Shown here in pieces: positions 1 through 5,934 of a stretch of 5,934 nucleotides of DNA. Below the pieces are notes generated by a model. The model ran no database searches and had not been told where the DNA came from. It saw only the letters and a list, made by a program, of their open reading frames with translations. The position numbers were made by a program, and so were the translations under genes. The stretch comes from Gammaproteobacteria bacterium (GTDB lineage: Bacteria > Pseudomonadota > Gammaproteobacteria > Granulosicoccales > Granulosicoccaceae). The stretch covers positions 1 through 5,934 of the forward strand of contig JAHQVR010000174.1 of the NCBI GenBank assembly GCA_019634245.1, in the 5' to 3' direction. Position 1 is the stretch's first letter; each line of letters starts with the position of its first letter.

Positions 1-1
1 A

Positions 2-127
2 GAGGCGTCTGCAACGTATCTCCAGATGGCCAATGATGCTGCCTGGGGCAGAATGAAGGAACGCCTCGACAAAATGGGTGGCGACAACGCCTACGATGAG
101 CTTCGTAAGCTGTATTTCGGTGAATAA
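2..127 (+). CDS. TRAP transporter substrate-binding protein, C-terminal end (partial)
   Basis: The frame from position 2 is open for 41 residues and ends at TAA 125-127; the start lies outside the window. The visible tail (…ATYLQMANDAAWGRMKERL… ending LRKLYFGE) is a charged amphipathic helix, as is common at the C-terminus of periplasmic DctP-type solute-binding proteins. The main support is context: the next two genes on the same strand are the small and large TRAP membrane subunits, and P-Q-M is a usual order. In such systems the P protein binds an organic acid in the periplasm and delivers it to the QM permease, driven by a sodium gradient. The fragment has no family-defining motif, so the identity is an inference from position. 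The codon pattern and stop make it a real coding end. Confidence 0.7.
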   Translation, partial: EASATYLQMANDAAWGRMKERLDKMGGDNAYDELRKLYFGE

Positions 128-310: not shown

Positions 311-805
311 ATGCGCCTTATCGATAAATTATGTAACCTGCTGGCAGTGCTTGCCGGGATATATCTGGTCGTGATCATGATTGCGATCGTCTTTCAGGCC
401 AGCGCCAGAACGTTGGGTTACTCAGGATCATCGCATTTTTTCACTTTTTCCGAATACGGACTCTTGTATATAGTCATGGCAGCGTCACCATGGCTGGTTC
501 GCCTTAAAGGCCATGTGTATATCGAGATGCTGACAGCAGCATTACCCGACTCTTTGGCTCCAGGTTTCTCGCGACTGGTAACACTTTTGTGTGTCATCAT
601 CTGTTTGTTACTGGTTTGGTATACCGGTGAAGCCACACTTAAGGCGTTCAATCGCGCAGACTTTGACATGCGTTCCCTCGACATGCCCAAATGGTTATTG
701 CTTATTCCTATGCCAATCTGCTTCTTTTTAATGGCAAGTCAATTTATGCGGTTTGTGGTCGGTCCGGATACGCTGCACACCGGTGAAGCTGGCGTTCACG
801 AATGA
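311..805 (+). CDS. dctQ: TRAP transporter small permease subunit (DctQ type)
   Basis: The gene encodes 164 residues, the usual size for the small membrane subunit of a tripartite ATP-independent periplasmic (TRAP) transporter. Four hydrophobic segments are visible at about residues 10-30, 45-63, 87-105 and 128-147, matching the family's four-helix topology. Family-like positions include Glu48 in the second helix, then Arg64 and GHV at 67-69 followed by Glu72, and a Pro-Lys-Trp (126-128) leading into the last helix. The protein sits in the inner membrane, pairs with the large subunit encoded next and helps dock the substrate-loaded periplasmic protein. ATG 311 is chosen because it places the first helix at the normal distance from the N-terminus; its Shine-Dalgarno is weak. 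Two tandem stops (TGA TGA, 803-808) end the gene. The symbol is a family label; the substrate cannot be read from this subunit. Confidence 0.93.
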   Translation: MRLIDKLCNLLAVLAGIYLVVIMIAIVFQASARTLGYSGSSHFFTFSEYGLLYIVMAASPWLVRLKGHVYIEMLTAALPDSLAPGFSRLVTLLCVIICLLLVWYTGEATLKAFNRADFDMRSLDMPKWLLLIPMPICFFLMASQFMRFVVGPDTLHTGEAGVHE

Positions 806-861: not shown

Positions 862-934
862 TGATGGAGTGGTTCTAGTGAAGTCATTGTTAGTGGGGTC
901 AACGTTGGTGGAGTCAAACTAGTGGAGTGGTATT
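862..934 (+). repeat. Degenerate 15-bp tandem repeat running into the dctM start
   Basis: Five imperfect units of 14-15 bp start at 862, 876, 891, 906 and 920. Each has a core like TAGTGGAGTCA or TGGTGGAGTGG. The last unit contains the GTG start of dctM, and the unit beginning at 906 provides its Shine-Dalgarno (GGTGGAG, 907-913, 8 nt before the start). The first unit contains ATG GAG TGG TTC TAG, which mimics the true dctM N-terminus (Met-Glu-Trp-Tyr) but stops at once. This suggests that the start region was duplicated repeatedly by slippage. Confidence 0.6.
869..922 (+). CDS. Possible 17-codon leader peptide overlapping the dctM start (speculative)
   Basis: A GTG at 869 opens a 17-codon frame that ends in TAG 920-922, which shares its last base with the dctM GTG start (TAGTG). 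Such one-base overlaps allow translational coupling. The predicted peptide has three pentads, VLVKS, LLVGS and TLVES, because the DNA repeat is 15 bp and stays in phase. In-frame GTG codons at 878, 893 and 908 offer further starts. There is no clear Shine-Dalgarno before 869, so this may only be a by-product of the repeat; it is recorded because it decides how dctM could be translated. Confidence 0.2.
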   Translation: MVLVKSLLVGSTLVESN

Positions 935-2259
935 GGGCACTGGCGTTTTTGTTGGGCATGATTTTGTTTTTCATGTTCATAGGCGTACCAGTAGCGCTGG
1001 CTTTTTTGGCAGCGAACATGATTGGTGCAACAATTTTTATGGGTGGTAACGGAGACCTCTCGACTCAAATGTCACGCGGTATCGGGCAACTCGCCAATAA
1101 TGCTGTTCAGACAGTTACCACGTTTAATCTTATGCCTGTGCCCATGTTCCTGCTAATGGGCGAGATTTTTTTCTTCACCGGACTTGCCAATCGAATGTTT
1201 AGCGCGATTGACAAACTGATGGGACGCATACCCGGTCGCTTGTCATTTGTTACCGTTGCCGGTGGTACCGCTTTTGCGACTTTGTCCGGTTCATCTATGG
1301 GGTCAACAGCGCTGCTCGGTTCTCTGATGGTTCCCGAGATGCAAAAACGCGGTTACAAAAAACACATGGCCATCGGCCCTATTCTCGGTACCGGTGGACT
1401 TGCCATGTTAATCCCCCCCTCAGCCCTGGCGGTACTGTTAGCAACGCTCGCCAACCTCGATGTTGGTCGCCTATTGATTGCCGGCATTGTGCCGGGACTG
1501 TTACTGGCTGTTTTTTACGTGGTATTGATTCTGGTGATGTGTCTTATCGATCCTGATGCTGCACCCGCATATGAAGTTGAAAAAGTCAGCTGGGCGACAC
1601 GATTTAAGCTGGTTGTATTCGATGTAATGCCAATGATGTCTGTTGTTATAGGCGTAATTTTATTCATACTTAATGGCTGGTCAACGCCATCAGAGTCCGC
1701 AGCATTCGGTTGCGTCGGAGTACTACTCCTGGCGGCAGCTTATCGAAAACTCACCGTTAAAAATATCATCGCATCGGTAGAAGGAGCGTTACGAGTCACG
1801 GTAATGGCATTGTTGATCATATTCGGGTCTGCCACATTCTCTGCGTTATTGGCCTTTTCAGGGGCCAGCGCCGGACTCATCAACTGGGCAACCGGATTTG
1901 AGCTCGCACCAATAGTGATGCTGCTGATCATGTTTGGCATCCTGCTGATTCTAGGAATGTTTATGGACCAACTGTCAATGATGCTATTGACAGTACCAAT
2001 CTTTTTTCCTCTGGCGCACACTCTGGATTTTGATTTAATCTGGTTTGCTGTAATTACCTTACTTGCACTCGAAATCAGTTTCACCACACCGCCATTTGGT
2101 TTGCTTTTGTTTGTGATGAAAGGTGTGTCTGCACCCGGTACAACGATGCGAGATATTTACGTGGCTGCCCTACCTTTTATGGCGTGTGCAATTCTACTGG
2201 TCGGCCTGCTAATCATCTGGCCAGACATTGCGCTATGGTTGCCTAATCTTGGAAAGTAG
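922..2259 (+). CDS. dctM: TRAP transporter large permease subunit (DctM type)
   Basis: The gene encodes 445 residues, close to the usual 425-440 for the large TRAP membrane subunit, which forms the sodium-coupled transport channel. The protein is hydrophobic throughout with about a dozen predicted helices. Family signatures include GVPVALAFLAAN near residues 21-32, a glycine/serine-rich re-entrant segment GGTAFATLSGSSMGS (114-128), GPILGTGGLAMLIPPS (152-167), NGWSTPSESAAFG (251-263), GMFMDQLSMMLLTVPIFFP (345-363) and a C-terminal TPPFG (389-393). GTG 922 is the only standard start in its frame after the in-frame TGA at 862-864, and it has GGTGGAG 8 nt upstream. The gene lies 116 bp after dctQ, an unusually long gap for this pair, filled by a tandem repeat. 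The substrate is not readable from this protein; the neighbouring enzymes suggest a small carboxylate or amino-acid-like compound. Confidence 0.96.
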   Translation: MEWYWALAFLLGMILFFMFIGVPVALAFLAANMIGATIFMGGNGDLSTQMSRGIGQLANNAVQTVTTFNLMPVPMFLLMGEIFFFTGLANRMFSAIDKLMGRIPGRLSFVTVAGGTAFATLSGSSMGSTALLGSLMVPEMQKRGYKKHMAIGPILGTGGLAMLIPPSALAVLLATLANLDVGRLLIAGIVPGLLLAVFYVVLILVMCLIDPDAAPAYEVEKVSWATRFKLVVFDVMPMMSVVIGVILFILNGWSTPSESAAFGCVGVLLLAAAYRKLTVKNIIASVEGALRVTVMALLIIFGSATFSALLAFSGASAGLINWATGFELAPIVMLLIMFGILLILGMFMDQLSMMLLTVPIFFPLAHTLDFDLIWFAVITLLALEISFTTPPFGLLLFVMKGVSAPGTTMRDIYVAALPFMACAILLVGLLIIWPDIALWLPNLGK

Positions 2260-2522: not shown

Positions 2523-3326
2523 TCAAGCAGCCGGTACTAGTGCCAGCGCTCTGAGCGGACTGCCTGTTCCATGCTCTATTTTAAGTGGTGCTGCAATTAA
2601 CAGCGCACCCTTAGGCGGTAGTTTATCCAGGTTAGTAAGACTGGCCAAACCAAAACAATTATCCCGATGCAGGAAATTGTGCGCCGGATACGGCGGACTC
2701 ATTTTACCTGCCATACCGGCATCGGTCCCAATACATTGTGTGCCCCAGCCGACAATTCCCTTTGACAACAAATATTCAATGCACTCCGGTGTGGGGCCGG
2801 GACTGTGTGAACCGTCTTCATGTGGGTCTGGATCTTCGTTTAAAAACAGTTCCTCATCGTGCGCGCGCTTGTCCCAGTCGGTACGCATGACCACCCATTC
2901 ACCAGCACCGATTTTACCGTATTGATTTTCCCATTCCTTTACCGCTTTGGCGGTCAGAAGAAAGTCGGCATCTTCTGCAGCCTGTACGGAGCAATCAATC
3001 ACGTTAGCTGGCGCCATGAGTCGTTGGACATCGAGCGTGTCGGTAAAACCATCGGGAAAGTCTTTACCGGATATCCAGTGGTGTGGCGCATCGAAGTGCG
3101 TGCCCGAGTGCTCACCCAGCTTCATCCAGTTCCACGCAAAGAACGGCCCATCGGCATCGTACTCACTGATTTTATGTATCTCGACTTTAGGCGTGTTTCG
3201 GGCAAAGTCTTCCGGTAGTCGCAGGATTGGCGTTTTTGGTCCAAGCACGCCGGTGCAATCGACGACTGTTATCTGACCACTGAGCAAGTGAGCACCAAAA
3301 TCATTGAGCAAGTCTTTCGATGACAT
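2523..3326 (-). CDS. Cyclase-family hydrolase possibly translated alone from an internal start
   Basis: Met427 of the fusion frame (ATG 3326-3324) begins a complete 267-residue cyclase-family protein ending at the same TGA (2525-2523). It is preceded by AAGGGG (3340-3335) at 8-nt spacing, the best ribosome binding site in the window and much better than the one at 4604. The N-terminus then reads MSSKDLLNDFGAHLLSG…VVDCTGVLGP, a natural start. The metal site is H499/H503/D505 with H508-H509 in fusion numbering; other likely conserved blocks are DGPFFAWNW (485-493), WVVMRTDWDKR (570-580) and HSPGPTP (600-606). At about 265 residues it is longer than the roughly 210-residue KynB formamidases and closer in size to isatin hydrolases. 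That favours isatin-hydrolase-type activity, but I cannot run the comparison. This entry is an alternative product of the same frame, not an extra locus. Confidence 0.55.
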   Translation of the reverse strand: MSSKDLLNDFGAHLLSGQITVVDCTGVLGPKTPILRLPEDFARNTPKVEIHKISEYDADGPFFAWNWMKLGEHSGTHFDAPHHWISGKDFPDGFTDTLDVQRLMAPANVIDCSVQAAEDADFLLTAKAVKEWENQYGKIGAGEWVVMRTDWDKRAHDEELFLNEDPDPHEDGSHSPGPTPECIEYLLSKGIVGWGTQCIGTDAGMAGKMSPPYPAHNFLHRDNCFGLASLTNLDKLPPKGALLIAAPLKIEHGTGSPLRALALVPAA

Positions 3327-4604
3327 CGGTGTTTCCCCTTTTTTGGATTTATTTTGACTGGATTCACTGGAACTGGCTTTACTTGTGTCGCCGTTACTTA
3401 TATTGACATTTCCGATCTTGTTTGGACCCTGCCCCGCAAAGCGCCGCTGACGCCTTTGCATAACAGTGTCGATGAGATCGAACGCTTCATCGATACTGTC
3501 TTCATCGGTTACGTAGCCCGGTGAGAGTCTGATCAGCGGACCACGAAAGTCGATTGAATAGCCTTCAATGCCCAACGCACCAACAGCTGATGCAGCTTCT
3601 GGTTTGTTTGGCATGCGCAACATCATTGAACCACCGCGCTGTGCACCCTCACGAGGACTGTGTAATGGCAAACCCAATTTATCGGCTCGCGCAATGATGC
3701 GATCAACCAGACGAAGGTTATCTGCGGCAAGTTGTGCGTGATCTTGTTGGCAGTGCCACTGTAACGCTGGTACCGATGCTATAGCTGCCATTGATCCCGG
3801 GGTACCTTTGTCGAATCGTCGAATATCGGGTGCGTATTCAAATTTGTCCAAGTCCCATGAAAACGGATTGTTCTGCGAAAACCAGCCGCGAATCTCCGGT
3901 GTAAGATCACTGATCAGTGGTTTATCAACATAGAATATACCGGCACCTGGAGTACCGCACATCCACTTAAGGCTTGTGGAAATGACAAAATCAACGCGCG
4001 GGTTCATCACGTCAAACGGTATTAGGCCCGCCGCCTGTGTGATATCTACGCACATTAAACTGCCCATCGAACGACCGTGTGCCACCAGCGCATCGAGATC
4101 GCATCTGGCAGAGGCCGTTGATGTGACCCAGGTAATCAGGGCAAGCCCAACATCAGCACCCCACCTGTCTATGTAAGACTCTGTCTCAACCCATGATGCA
4201 CCTTCAGGCACACTGACCGTATCGAGTGTAAAACCCATACGAGGTGCAAGGCCTGCCAATAAAAAATGCAACGACGGAAAGCAATCACCGGCAACCAGTA
4301 CCCGTTTACCTTCTAGACTATTTTCAGGCAACGATCGCAACAGACTGTGAAAGCCGCCGGTGACACTGTCGCAGGTTGTCAACGATCCTTTTGGGGCGTT
4401 AATAATCCGGCGCCAGTAGTCGATAAAGTCCTGACGCTTCTGCAGCACGTATCCCCATTGCTTGTCATTGGGTGCCGCCCAGGTAGCGGCAAACTCGTGC
4501 ATGGCATCTTTGAGTTCCCGTTCCTTACCGGGATACTGTCCAATTGAATGGTATAGAAAATATCCGGCTGGATTAGCAACAACATCGTGGTTCGGCAACT
4601 GCAT
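2523..4604 (-). CDS. Kynureninase-like PLP enzyme fused to a cyclase-family metal-dependent hydrolase
   Basis: A single uninterrupted frame of 693 residues holds two enzymes. Residues 1 to about 388 form a PLP-dependent class V (fold type I) domain closest in layout to kynureninase: Asp187 (CVDITQ) for the cofactor pyridine nitrogen, Lys213 (TSLKWMCGTPG) as the presumed Schiff-base lysine, GW at 240-241, a GTP loop at 267-269 and Arg359 (LIRLSPG) for the substrate carboxylate. Residues 391-426 are a Ser/Lys/Asn-rich linker. Residues 427-693 are a cyclase-family hydrolase with the metal-binding signature HSGTHFDAPHH (499-509). Known relatives hydrolyse N-formylkynurenine or isatin, while kynureninase makes anthranilate and alanine, so the halves could act in sequence. 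Each half matches a normal stand-alone enzyme length, so neither seems truncated. The start ATG 4604 has a modest AGAGAA upstream. Exact substrates are inferred; family assignment is firm. Confidence 0.9.
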   Translation of the reverse strand: MQLPNHDVVANPAGYFLYHSIGQYPGKERELKDAMHEFAATWAAPNDKQWGYVLQKRQDFIDYWRRIINAPKGSLTTCDSVTGGFHSLLRSLPENSLEGKRVLVAGDCFPSLHFLLAGLAPRMGFTLDTVSVPEGASWVETESYIDRWGADVGLALITWVTSTASARCDLDALVAHGRSMGSLMCVDITQAAGLIPFDVMNPRVDFVISTSLKWMCGTPGAGIFYVDKPLISDLTPEIRGWFSQNNPFSWDLDKFEYAPDIRRFDKGTPGSMAAIASVPALQWHCQQDHAQLAADNLRLVDRIIARADKLGLPLHSPREGAQRGGSMMLRMPNKPEAASAVGALGIEGYSIDFRGPLIRLSPGYVTDEDSIDEAFDLIDTVMQRRQRRFAGQGPNKIGNVNISNGDTSKASSSESSQNKSKKGETPMSSKDLLNDFGAHLLSGQITVVDCTGVLGPKTPILRLPEDFARNTPKVEIHKISEYDADGPFFAWNWMKLGEHSGTHFDAPHHWISGKDFPDGFTDTLDVQRLMAPANVIDCSVQAAEDADFLLTAKAVKEWENQYGKIGAGEWVVMRTDWDKRAHDEELFLNEDPDPHEDGSHSPGPTPECIEYLLSKGIVGWGTQCIGTDAGMAGKMSPPYPAHNFLHRDNCFGLASLTNLDKLPPKGALLIAAPLKIEHGTGSPLRALALVPAA
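3327..3434 (-). other. Low-complexity interdomain linker (residues 391-426 of the fusion)
   Basis: The 36 residues between the PLP domain and the hydrolase are rich in Ser, Lys, Asn, Gln and Gly, with no predicted hydrophobic core. The DNA includes a 9-bp direct repeat, TTGACTGGA (3354-3362) and TTCACTGGA (3363-3371) on the plus strand. It ends in the Shine-Dalgarno for the internal ATG. This is what a former intergenic spacer would look like after loss of the upstream stop codon. Confidence 0.6.
3335..3340 (-). promoter_or_regulatory. Internal Shine-Dalgarno at the fusion junction
   Basis: On the minus strand AAGGGG lies 8 nt before ATG 3326-3324, inside the coding frame of the 693-residue fusion, where it encodes part of Lys-Lys-Gly. 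A near-consensus site at this exact domain boundary is unlikely to be chance. It suggests that the hydrolase was once a separate downstream gene and may still be initiated independently. Confidence 0.7.
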
Positions 4605-4688: not shown

Positions 4689-5934
4689 ATGAACACCAGC
4701 GCCAAACTTAGCTTACAGGACAACCCGGTGATCACCGGCCTATGGCAAGTCGCCGATCTTGAACGCAATGGCGTAGCCCTCGATCAGCAAGTGGCATCTG
4801 ACTCATTACTCGAGTATGTAGACGATGGCTTCACCTGTTTTGACATGGCTGATCACTACGGCAGTGCTGAAATTATTGCAGGTGTTGCCAAAAAGCGGCT
4901 TAGTGCTACACACCATCCATTGGCTGACAAACTCAGACTGTATACAAAATGGTGTCCTGAACCAAATGAAACGACGTTTGAATTGGTAAAGGCCGGAATA
5001 ATGAAACGCCTGGAAAGGCTGGATGTCGACTGCATTGATTTGTTGCAACTACATTGGTGGACGTTTGATCACCCAGGCTATATCGATGTCATGGATCACC
5101 TTCATCGATTGCAGCAGGACGGACTCATTCGGCATATTGGCGTAACCAACTTTGATACAGACCATCTGCACGTGCTGCAATCATGTGGTTTTAACATTGT
5201 CAGTAATCAGGTTTGTCTTTCTGTTCTCGATCGCCGTGCACTTGGAGACATGAGCCAGCTGTGTCAGGCCACCGGAGTCAGGCTGTTGTGCTACGGAACC
5301 CTTGCTGGCGGCTTCATTAGTGAACGTTGGCTCGGAGCAGAAAAACCTGAACAGATAGAAGATTGGTCAAAGATGAAGTATCTGCGCTTTATTGATGCAA
5401 CTGGGGGTTGGTCTGTGTTTCAGGCACTATTACAAACACTGAATACAATTGCGCAGCAACGCAACGTTTCAATAGCTAATGTTGCAACCAGTTGGGTATT
5501 ACAACAACCGTCAGTCGCTGGGATTATCGTTGGCGCGCGTGTTACACAAAACCAACACCGCAACAGTAACAAAGCCTTGTTGCAGTTAAAGCTTACTGAT
5601 GATGACATTGCCCAGATCGATCAACACGAACAGATGCTTGCCGTTGTTCCCGGTGATTGTGGCTCGGAATATCGTCGCCCTCCATTTTTAACTGCCTCTG
5701 GGGATCTCAGCCACCATCTGGATGCACTGCCGACAGTTTATCAACGCGAAGCAATTGCGGGTTTTAAGCAACGCTTTCGAATCAGTTCAGGCAGCGAATT
5801 TGAACCCGTATGTGGCTATAGCCGAGGCATCCGTGAAGGCAATCGAATACTGATAAGCGGTACAACAGCAACACATGGTGAAAGCCGCACTATAGGCAAT
5901 GACCCGCATGCGCAGACCGAGCGCCCTGTCGGCA
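4689..5934 (+). CDS. Aldo/keto reductase fused to a RidA/YjgF-family domain (partial, runs off the window)
   Basis: The frame from ATG 4689 is open to the last base (415 codons plus one base) with no stop. Residues about 12-315 are an NAD(P)H-dependent aldo/keto reductase TIM barrel. The catalytic tetrad is visible as Asp52 and Tyr57 (FDMADHYG), Lys87 (LYTKW) and His122 (DLLQLHWW). IGVTNF is at 150-155 and the cofactor-binding C-terminal pattern GIIVGARVTQNQ is at 278-289. A conserved-looking tail, GDCGSEYRRPPFLTASGD, follows (322-339). From about residue 363 the sequence changes to a RidA/YjgF-type N-terminus (FEPVCGYSRGIREGNRILIS, GTTATHG), a family that hydrolyses reactive enamines/imines made by PLP enzymes. 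The RidA active-site arginine would lie beyond the window. There is no strong Shine-Dalgarno, but 4689 is the first ATG and fits the family N-terminus. The gene is divergent from the PLP fusion. Substrates are unknown. Confidence 0.9.
   Translation, partial: MNTSAKLSLQDNPVITGLWQVADLERNGVALDQQVASDSLLEYVDDGFTCFDMADHYGSAEIIAGVAKKRLSATHHPLADKLRLYTKWCPEPNETTFELVKAGIMKRLERLDVDCIDLLQLHWWTFDHPGYIDVMDHLHRLQQDGLIRHIGVTNFDTDHLHVLQSCGFNIVSNQVCLSVLDRRALGDMSQLCQATGVRLLCYGTLAGGFISERWLGAEKPEQIEDWSKMKYLRFIDATGGWSVFQALLQTLNTIAQQRNVSIANVATSWVLQQPSVAGIIVGARVTQNQHRNSNKALLQLKLTDDDIAQIDQHEQMLAVVPGDCGSEYRRPPFLTASGDLSHHLDALPTVYQREAIAGFKQRFRISSGSEFEPVCGYSRGIREGNRILISGTTATHGESRTIGNDPHAQTERPVG

Follow-up and report, generated by a model that had tools for sequence, protein, structure and literature searches.

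A genuine fusion of a kynureninase-like PLP enzyme with isatin hydrolase B and its possible role in the breakdown of oxidized tryptophan

Introduction

Kynureninase cleaves the Cβ–Cγ bond of a γ-keto amino acid and is capable of retro-aldol chemistry. Tryptophan is readily oxidized by light and radicals; to our knowledge, little has been established about the fate of its oxidation products in water, and we know of no clear natural source of isatin for isatin hydrolases outside auxin breakdown. Here we examine a stretch of 5,934 nucleotides (the window) from a gammaproteobacterium of the Granulosicoccaceae (GenBank assembly GCA_019634245.1, contig JAHQVR010000174.1), in which a single gene encodes a kynureninase-like pyridoxal phosphate (PLP) enzyme followed by a very probable isatin hydrolase. 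Our tentative interpretation is that the product may be a bifunctional catabolic enzyme in the isatin branch of the breakdown of tryptophan-derived compounds, in which isatin is made by one half and then opened by the other.

The closest described relative of the second half is the isatin hydrolase B of Labrenzia (Roseibium) aggregata (LaIHB; structures 4j0n and 4m8d). This is a free-standing enzyme, whereas the version in the window forms the C-terminal half of a fusion. PMC6117287 lists as signatures of isatin hydrolases the metal motif HxG[T/A]HxDxPxH, a GLAS/GLQC motif and an aromatic pocket, which in LaIHB consists of Phe63, Trp65, Trp84 and Phe209. The bacterial arylformamidase KynB (TIGR03035) belongs to the same cyclase superfamily, yet according to that paper it has an I(L/I)E motif where the second half of our protein has GLAS.

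For the isatin branch, the nearest described system is the iad auxin locus of Variovorax. PMC9613470 reports isatin and isatinic acid as intermediates and IorAB-type genes (IadA/IadB) as markers, and a MarR regulator is likewise shared with loci described below. A preprint (PMC12633357) revises the iad route, and in it IadI is annotated as a kynurenine formamidase. The iad substrate, however, is indole-3-acetic acid, and the main texts of PMC9613470 and PMC12633357 do not mention kynureninase. No iadCDE oxygenase genes were recognized in the window, and the genomes were not searched for them.

Dioxindolyl-L-alanine (3-hydroxy-2-oxindolyl-alanine), an oxidized tryptophan, is a known compound, described in PMC11301627 as an inhibitor bound by the PLP enzyme tryptophan indole-lyase. 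In the titles and abstract openings of the open-licence papers on this compound, no catabolic pathway was found. The open-licence literature likewise yielded nothing joining isatin hydrolase or dihydrokynurenine with kynureninase, no description of a route from oxidized tryptophan to isatin and no paper describing the fused architecture.

Results

The fused gene (2523..4604, minus strand) starts with ATG and runs as a single open frame of 693 amino acids through a kynureninase-like fold-type I PLP domain (residues 1–390; 3435..4604, minus strand), a linker (residues 391–426; 3327..3434, minus strand) and an isatin hydrolase B domain (residues 427–693; 2526..3326, minus strand). A Pfam scan placed PF00266 at residues 66–311 (52.6 bits, cut-off 21.5) and PF04199 at residues 468–629 (109.1 bits, cut-off 23.1). 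An earlier note, made from the letters alone, had described an open frame across a kynureninase-like and a cyclase-family domain, with a catalytic lysine at Lys213 (the expected PLP lysine, in TSLKWMCGTPG; 3966..3968, minus strand; role by homology) and a metal site at residues 499–509 (HSGTHFDAPHH; 3078..3110, minus strand), and this description holds. The same note had raised the possibility of an assembly error and suggested looking for the two domains, aminotransferase class V and cyclase, in one protein elsewhere. A protein search scored 7,990 candidates, of which 700 passed an E value of 0.001, and both domains occur together in 120/120 of the best 120 of these 700 relatives, at lengths of 648–711 amino acids. 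Lys213, H499, G501, H503, D505, P507 and H509 are invariant in 121/121 aligned sequences (the window and these 120). Because the relatives carry the fused form, an assembly artifact is very unlikely, and there can be hardly any doubt that the gene is a genuine fusion. The architecture is already present in databases, where names among the relatives listed are mixed, e.g. ‘kynurenine formamidase/selenocysteine lyase/cysteine desulfurase’.

The linker is variable, of low conservation and partly gapped in most relatives. Residues 393–424 have a predicted-structure confidence below 50 in the whole-protein model; that model has a mean predicted local distance difference test (pLDDT) score of 70.3 with a poor hydrolase half, and served only to rank relatives. 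A putative Shine-Dalgarno-like AGGGGA (3334..3339, minus strand), read from the sequence, precedes Met427, and the two together look like a possible relic of a separate gene start. A Met occupies column 427 in 85 of the 121 aligned sequences. The other 36 lack it, so there the hydrolase would be made within the fusion or from another start.

A search of genome contigs returned 201 relatives, of which 80 loci were retained. Their hosts are mostly Rhodobacteraceae and kin. Both halves adjoin on the same strand in 33 loci, four of which are short or interrupted (L027, L028, L030 and L031), while within the locus DNA 40 loci have the PLP half only and seven the hydrolase half only. The closest of the 80 (L001, 77%) comes from a Granulosicoccaceae metagenome genome; among 48 genomes searched from its order, the fusion occurs in one, namely L001's own. 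A tree was built from 78 PLP halves and 12 kynureninases, with four short rows excluded; in it, the 38 fused rows form a single group requiring one change, with a Shimodaira–Hasegawa-like approximate likelihood-ratio test (SH-aLRT) value of 89, under the 95 mark. The window adjoins P0001 and P0002, then L001 and its kin. Since the fused rows make one clade, the most likely history suggested by the tree is that the fusion arose once, in Rhodobacterales-like bacteria, and was then transferred. Among the plasmids of PLSDB, 340 records match, none of them over 80% of the query at any one place.

The second half matches LaIHB (4j0n) over its entire length (481.8 bits, E 5.4e-144). Compared with the pocket given in PMC6117287, three of four residues are identical in the alignment of the window (Phe489, Trp491 and Trp510) and the fourth, Phe209, is replaced by Tyr639, still aromatic. 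The metal motif HxG[T/A]HxDxPxH and GLAS are each present in the window and in all of the best 120 relatives. Against the KynB model TIGR03035 the second half reaches only 30.3 bits, far under the cut-off of 223.05, and this score together with the GLAS motif rules out a kynurenine formamidase. On homology we predict with high confidence that the second half is an isatin hydrolase. The pairing of KynU with KynB that the earlier note had in mind is not borne out for either member, as the first half also falls short of kynureninase (49.9 bits against a cut-off of 246.4, TIGR01814).

The first half does share with kynureninase (1qz9, 3e9k) the fold, the PLP lysine, Asp187, Trp241 and Arg359. However, it is only 20–22% identical to 1qz9, and against the cysteine desulfurase model TIGR01979 (SufS) it reaches 40.4 bits, below the cut-off of 475.1. 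We compared residues in 74 PLP halves (34 fused, including the window, and 40 unfused) with the 12 best-scoring kynureninases. The PLP lysine (Lys213, aligned with that of kynureninase in 12/12), Asp187, Arg354 and Arg359 are retained in 74/74. Arg359, which aligns with Arg in 12/12 kynureninases, is presumably the binder of the substrate α-carboxylate. Three positions differ throughout, the residue of the PLP halves being found in 74/74 and that of kynureninase in 12/12: Leu212 replaces the Tyr directly before the PLP lysine, Gln190 replaces the His three residues past the PLP-site Asp, and Gln244 replaces a further His. We take the Tyr and His at the first two positions to have catalytic roles in kynureninase. 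Judged by score and residues, the first half falls outside the kynureninase family and classifies as a kynureninase-like PLP enzyme. Since fused and unfused copies carry the same three replacements, they probably catalyze the same reaction.

These residues bear on the strongest of the alternatives, a diverged ordinary kynureninase that would convert kynurenine to anthranilate and alanine while the hydrolase half serves a parallel source, both meeting at a shared anthranilate/2-aminobenzoyl-CoA (coenzyme A) hub without handing any intermediate to one another. The conserved PLP lysine and Arg359 agree with it, as does kynureninase 1qz9, the top solved relative of the PLP half by both sequence and fold rank. 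The low family score and the three constant replacements argue against it, and we consider it doubtful.

The distribution of the genes across genomes points in the same direction. In a panel of 295 genomes from one family, 37 have the PLP half (E 1e-60), 59 an isatin hydrolase (E 1e-40), 71 an IorA-like gene (E 1e-100) and 238 a kynureninase (E 1e-60; 237 above its cut-off). Isatin hydrolase is present in 34/37 genomes with the PLP half vs 25/258 others (p 4e-25) and, after removal of the 12 fused genomes, in 22/25 vs 25/258 (p 8e-17), by Fisher tests that ignore shared ancestry. All 34 genomes with both have the B type (at least 58% identity), and the nine genomes with the A type alone are all without the PLP half. 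The IorA-like gene accompanies isatin hydrolase in 59/59 genomes. Among the 22 unfused genomes with PLP half and isatin hydrolase, 11 have them on one contig, eight of these within 12 kb. A second, unfused isatin hydrolase B occurs in six of the 12 fused genomes, so the fused copy looks dedicated to the PLP half.

Kynureninase, in contrast, is present in 33/37 genomes carrying the PLP half vs 205/258 others, a difference that is not significant (p 0.19). In 19 fusion genomes searched, many of them metagenome genomes, a separate kynureninase above the cut-off was found in 16 and a tryptophan 2,3-dioxygenase match in 14. The separate kynureninases and the missing link to them speak further against an ordinary kynureninase. 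We consider that the first half probably feeds the isatin/isatinate branch, not the ordinary kynurenine pathway.

Gene neighborhoods add to this picture. An IorA-like sequence lies directly downstream in 10/33 fused loci (fragmented in L008). In three unfused loci (L043, L044 and L057), the PLP gene is grouped with genes for IorB, IorA, MarR, a flavin adenine dinucleotide (FAD) oxidoreductase and an isatin hydrolase truncated at the edge of the locus, and in L058 and L059 the PLP gene and isatin hydrolase are divergent neighbors. None of the 33 fused loci gave a match to the FAD oxidoreductase. A polar-amino-acid ATP-binding cassette (ABC) permease is located near 16/40 unfused copies and in 13 of them ends at most 70 bases from the PLP match; because this permease adjoins the PLP gene, the substrate is likely an imported amino acid. 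One gene in L057 scores 1,260.8 bits with the salicylyl-CoA 5-hydroxylase/oxidoreductase model, above its cut-off of 1,078, and relatives of this gene are found near 8/40 unfused copies. We take such a salicylyl-CoA-hydroxylase-like gene to be a 2-aminobenzoyl-CoA monooxygenase/reductase. The neighboring genes suggest an aminobenzoyl-CoA-type route downstream.

Several further arrangements were seen in individual loci. Aminobenzoyl-CoA-type genes stand by the unfused PLP gene at L057:1458-5732 and L040:533-5992, comprising a two-domain monooxygenase/reductase, an enoyl-CoA hydratase, a 3-hydroxyacyl-CoA dehydrogenase and a thiolase. Locus L038 belongs to Rubellimicrobium roseum, with an above-cut-off kynureninase on a different contig. 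A pair of genes for a lactonase-like metallohydrolase and an aminotransferase lies beside some fused genes, e.g. at L019:1890-3830. The best solved match of the metallohydrolase is N-acylhomoserine lactonase (E 3.4e-24), and it is also near 4-pyridoxolactonase. Metallohydrolase and aminotransferase occur near 9/33 fused vs 2/40 unfused copies (metallohydrolase matches of at least 57%).

The rest of the window is occupied by a transporter and an oxidoreductase. A tripartite ATP-independent periplasmic (TRAP) transporter is represented by the small subunit DctQ (311..805, plus strand; PF04290, 52.6 bits) and the large subunit DctM (922..2259, plus strand; PF06808, 233.4 bits). By eye, positions 1-127 (plus strand) look like the last (3′) part of a gene for a TRAP substrate-binding protein; together with DctQ and DctM, this would make the transporter complete. 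The divergent neighbor of the fused gene (4689..5933, plus strand) encodes an aldo/keto reductase (PF00248) with a C-terminal RidA domain and runs past the window end; on its window-cut tail, RidA (PF01042) scores 17.2 bits, under the cut-off of 27.3. The two domains occur together in 120/120 relatives listed, whose names include Granulosicoccus, Hoeflea and Stappia, and this architecture is common.

Discussion

We tentatively propose the following route. The PLP half would bind an imported amino acid, possibly dioxindolyl-L-alanine, the γ carbon of which bears a hydroxyl, so that a kynureninase-like retro-aldol cleavage of Cβ–Cγ would free isatin and L-alanine. We infer this substrate with limited confidence, and the link of the PLP half to isatin is suggested by gene association. 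The manganese isatin hydrolase half, on strong homology, would then open the isatin ring to yield isatinate. Next, an IorAB-like oxidoreductase, with genes either adjacent or at another site, might turn isatinate into 2-aminobenzoyl-CoA, which would be degraded by a monooxygenase/reductase and β-oxidation-type enzymes; this third step rests on gene association and borrows from the intermediates and IorAB-type markers of the iad auxin locus. The covalent link would hold the reactive isatin near its hydrolase, and channeling between the halves, already raised in the earlier note, is a sensible idea.

A PLP half that makes isatin would explain the association with isatin hydrolase and amino acid transporters, as well as the retention of the α-carboxylate Arg with altered residues around PLP. 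It would also explain why the PLP domain comes first, as the order of the domains would be the order of the reactions. The earlier note had regarded this order as reversed relative to the kynurenine pathway; the PLP domain does stand first, but the reversal disappears if isatin is its product.

Several observations weigh against this interpretation. No oxygenase forming dioxindolylalanine was identified near the gene, and IorAB is lacking both in the window and in the locus DNA of L001. The model of the PLP half (mean pLDDT 85.3) ties kynureninase with cysteine desulfurases (Z 34.7 vs 34.4 and below), and with both within 1 Z unit the fold leaves the reaction undecided. The strength of the co-occurrence is to be read with the shared ancestry of the panel genomes in mind. 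Moreover, 16/50 panel genomes with isatin hydrolase B are without the PLP half, and therefore the hydrolase has other isatin sources or uses. Conversely, three of the 37 genomes with the PLP half (G020, G021 and G184) have no isatin hydrolase, and G020 and G021 also have no IorA-like gene at the thresholds applied. These two are isolates, Ruegeria spongiae and Marimonas lutisalis (L033 and L034, respectively), whose PLP genes are among the unfused ones nearest to the fused clade, and the occurrence of these genes without isatin hydrolase is unexplained by our best reading. In L038, finally, a tryptophan 2,3-dioxygenase (3513-4301) and a gene of the benzoate-CoA-ligase family adjoin the PLP gene, an arrangement which also fits the conversion of kynurenine to anthranilate and so favors the diverged kynureninase discussed above.

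Two other reactions have to be weighed. The PLP half may act on a different amino acid, such as a halogenated or ring-hydroxylated tryptophan derivative, with the hydrolase half opening a substituted isatin or another lactam. The transporters do vary, from TRAP in the window to branched-chain-type and polar-amino-acid ABC systems elsewhere, whereas the hydrolase pocket stays close to that of the isatin enzyme in PMC6117287 (three residues kept, one Phe to Tyr), and we regard this alternative as unlikely. Least probable is a β-eliminating lyase that would split oxidized tryptophan into oxindole or a related ring and aminoacrylate or pyruvate plus ammonia, a separate oxidoreductase then making isatin, as fusions of aldo/keto reductase with RidA are common, the aldo/keto reductase beside the fused gene of L002 (the sole other one Pfam-scanned) has no RidA domain, and the FAD oxidoreductase is unmatched in the fused loci.

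If dioxindolylalanine is indeed cleaved to isatin, the genes may belong to an undescribed route for oxidized tryptophan, many of whose hosts are marine. This broader proposal, which we hold more loosely than the substrate itself, would join a dioxindolylalanine lyase from a separate kynureninase-like subfamily to isatin hydrolase and lead via IorAB to 2-aminobenzoyl-CoA without kynurenine, free anthranilate or auxin. As a matter of speculation, the lactonase-like metallohydrolase could act first by opening a dioxindolylalanine lactone.

The architecture is built from known kinds of enzymes, while the reaction proposed is new, plausible and cheaply testable: the fusion predicts that a single protein would convert dioxindolylalanine to isatinate and alanine. 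Among members of these families, the labels kynureninase and kynurenine formamidase may be wrong. If true, an isatin-forming enzyme would give isatin hydrolases a metabolic purpose.

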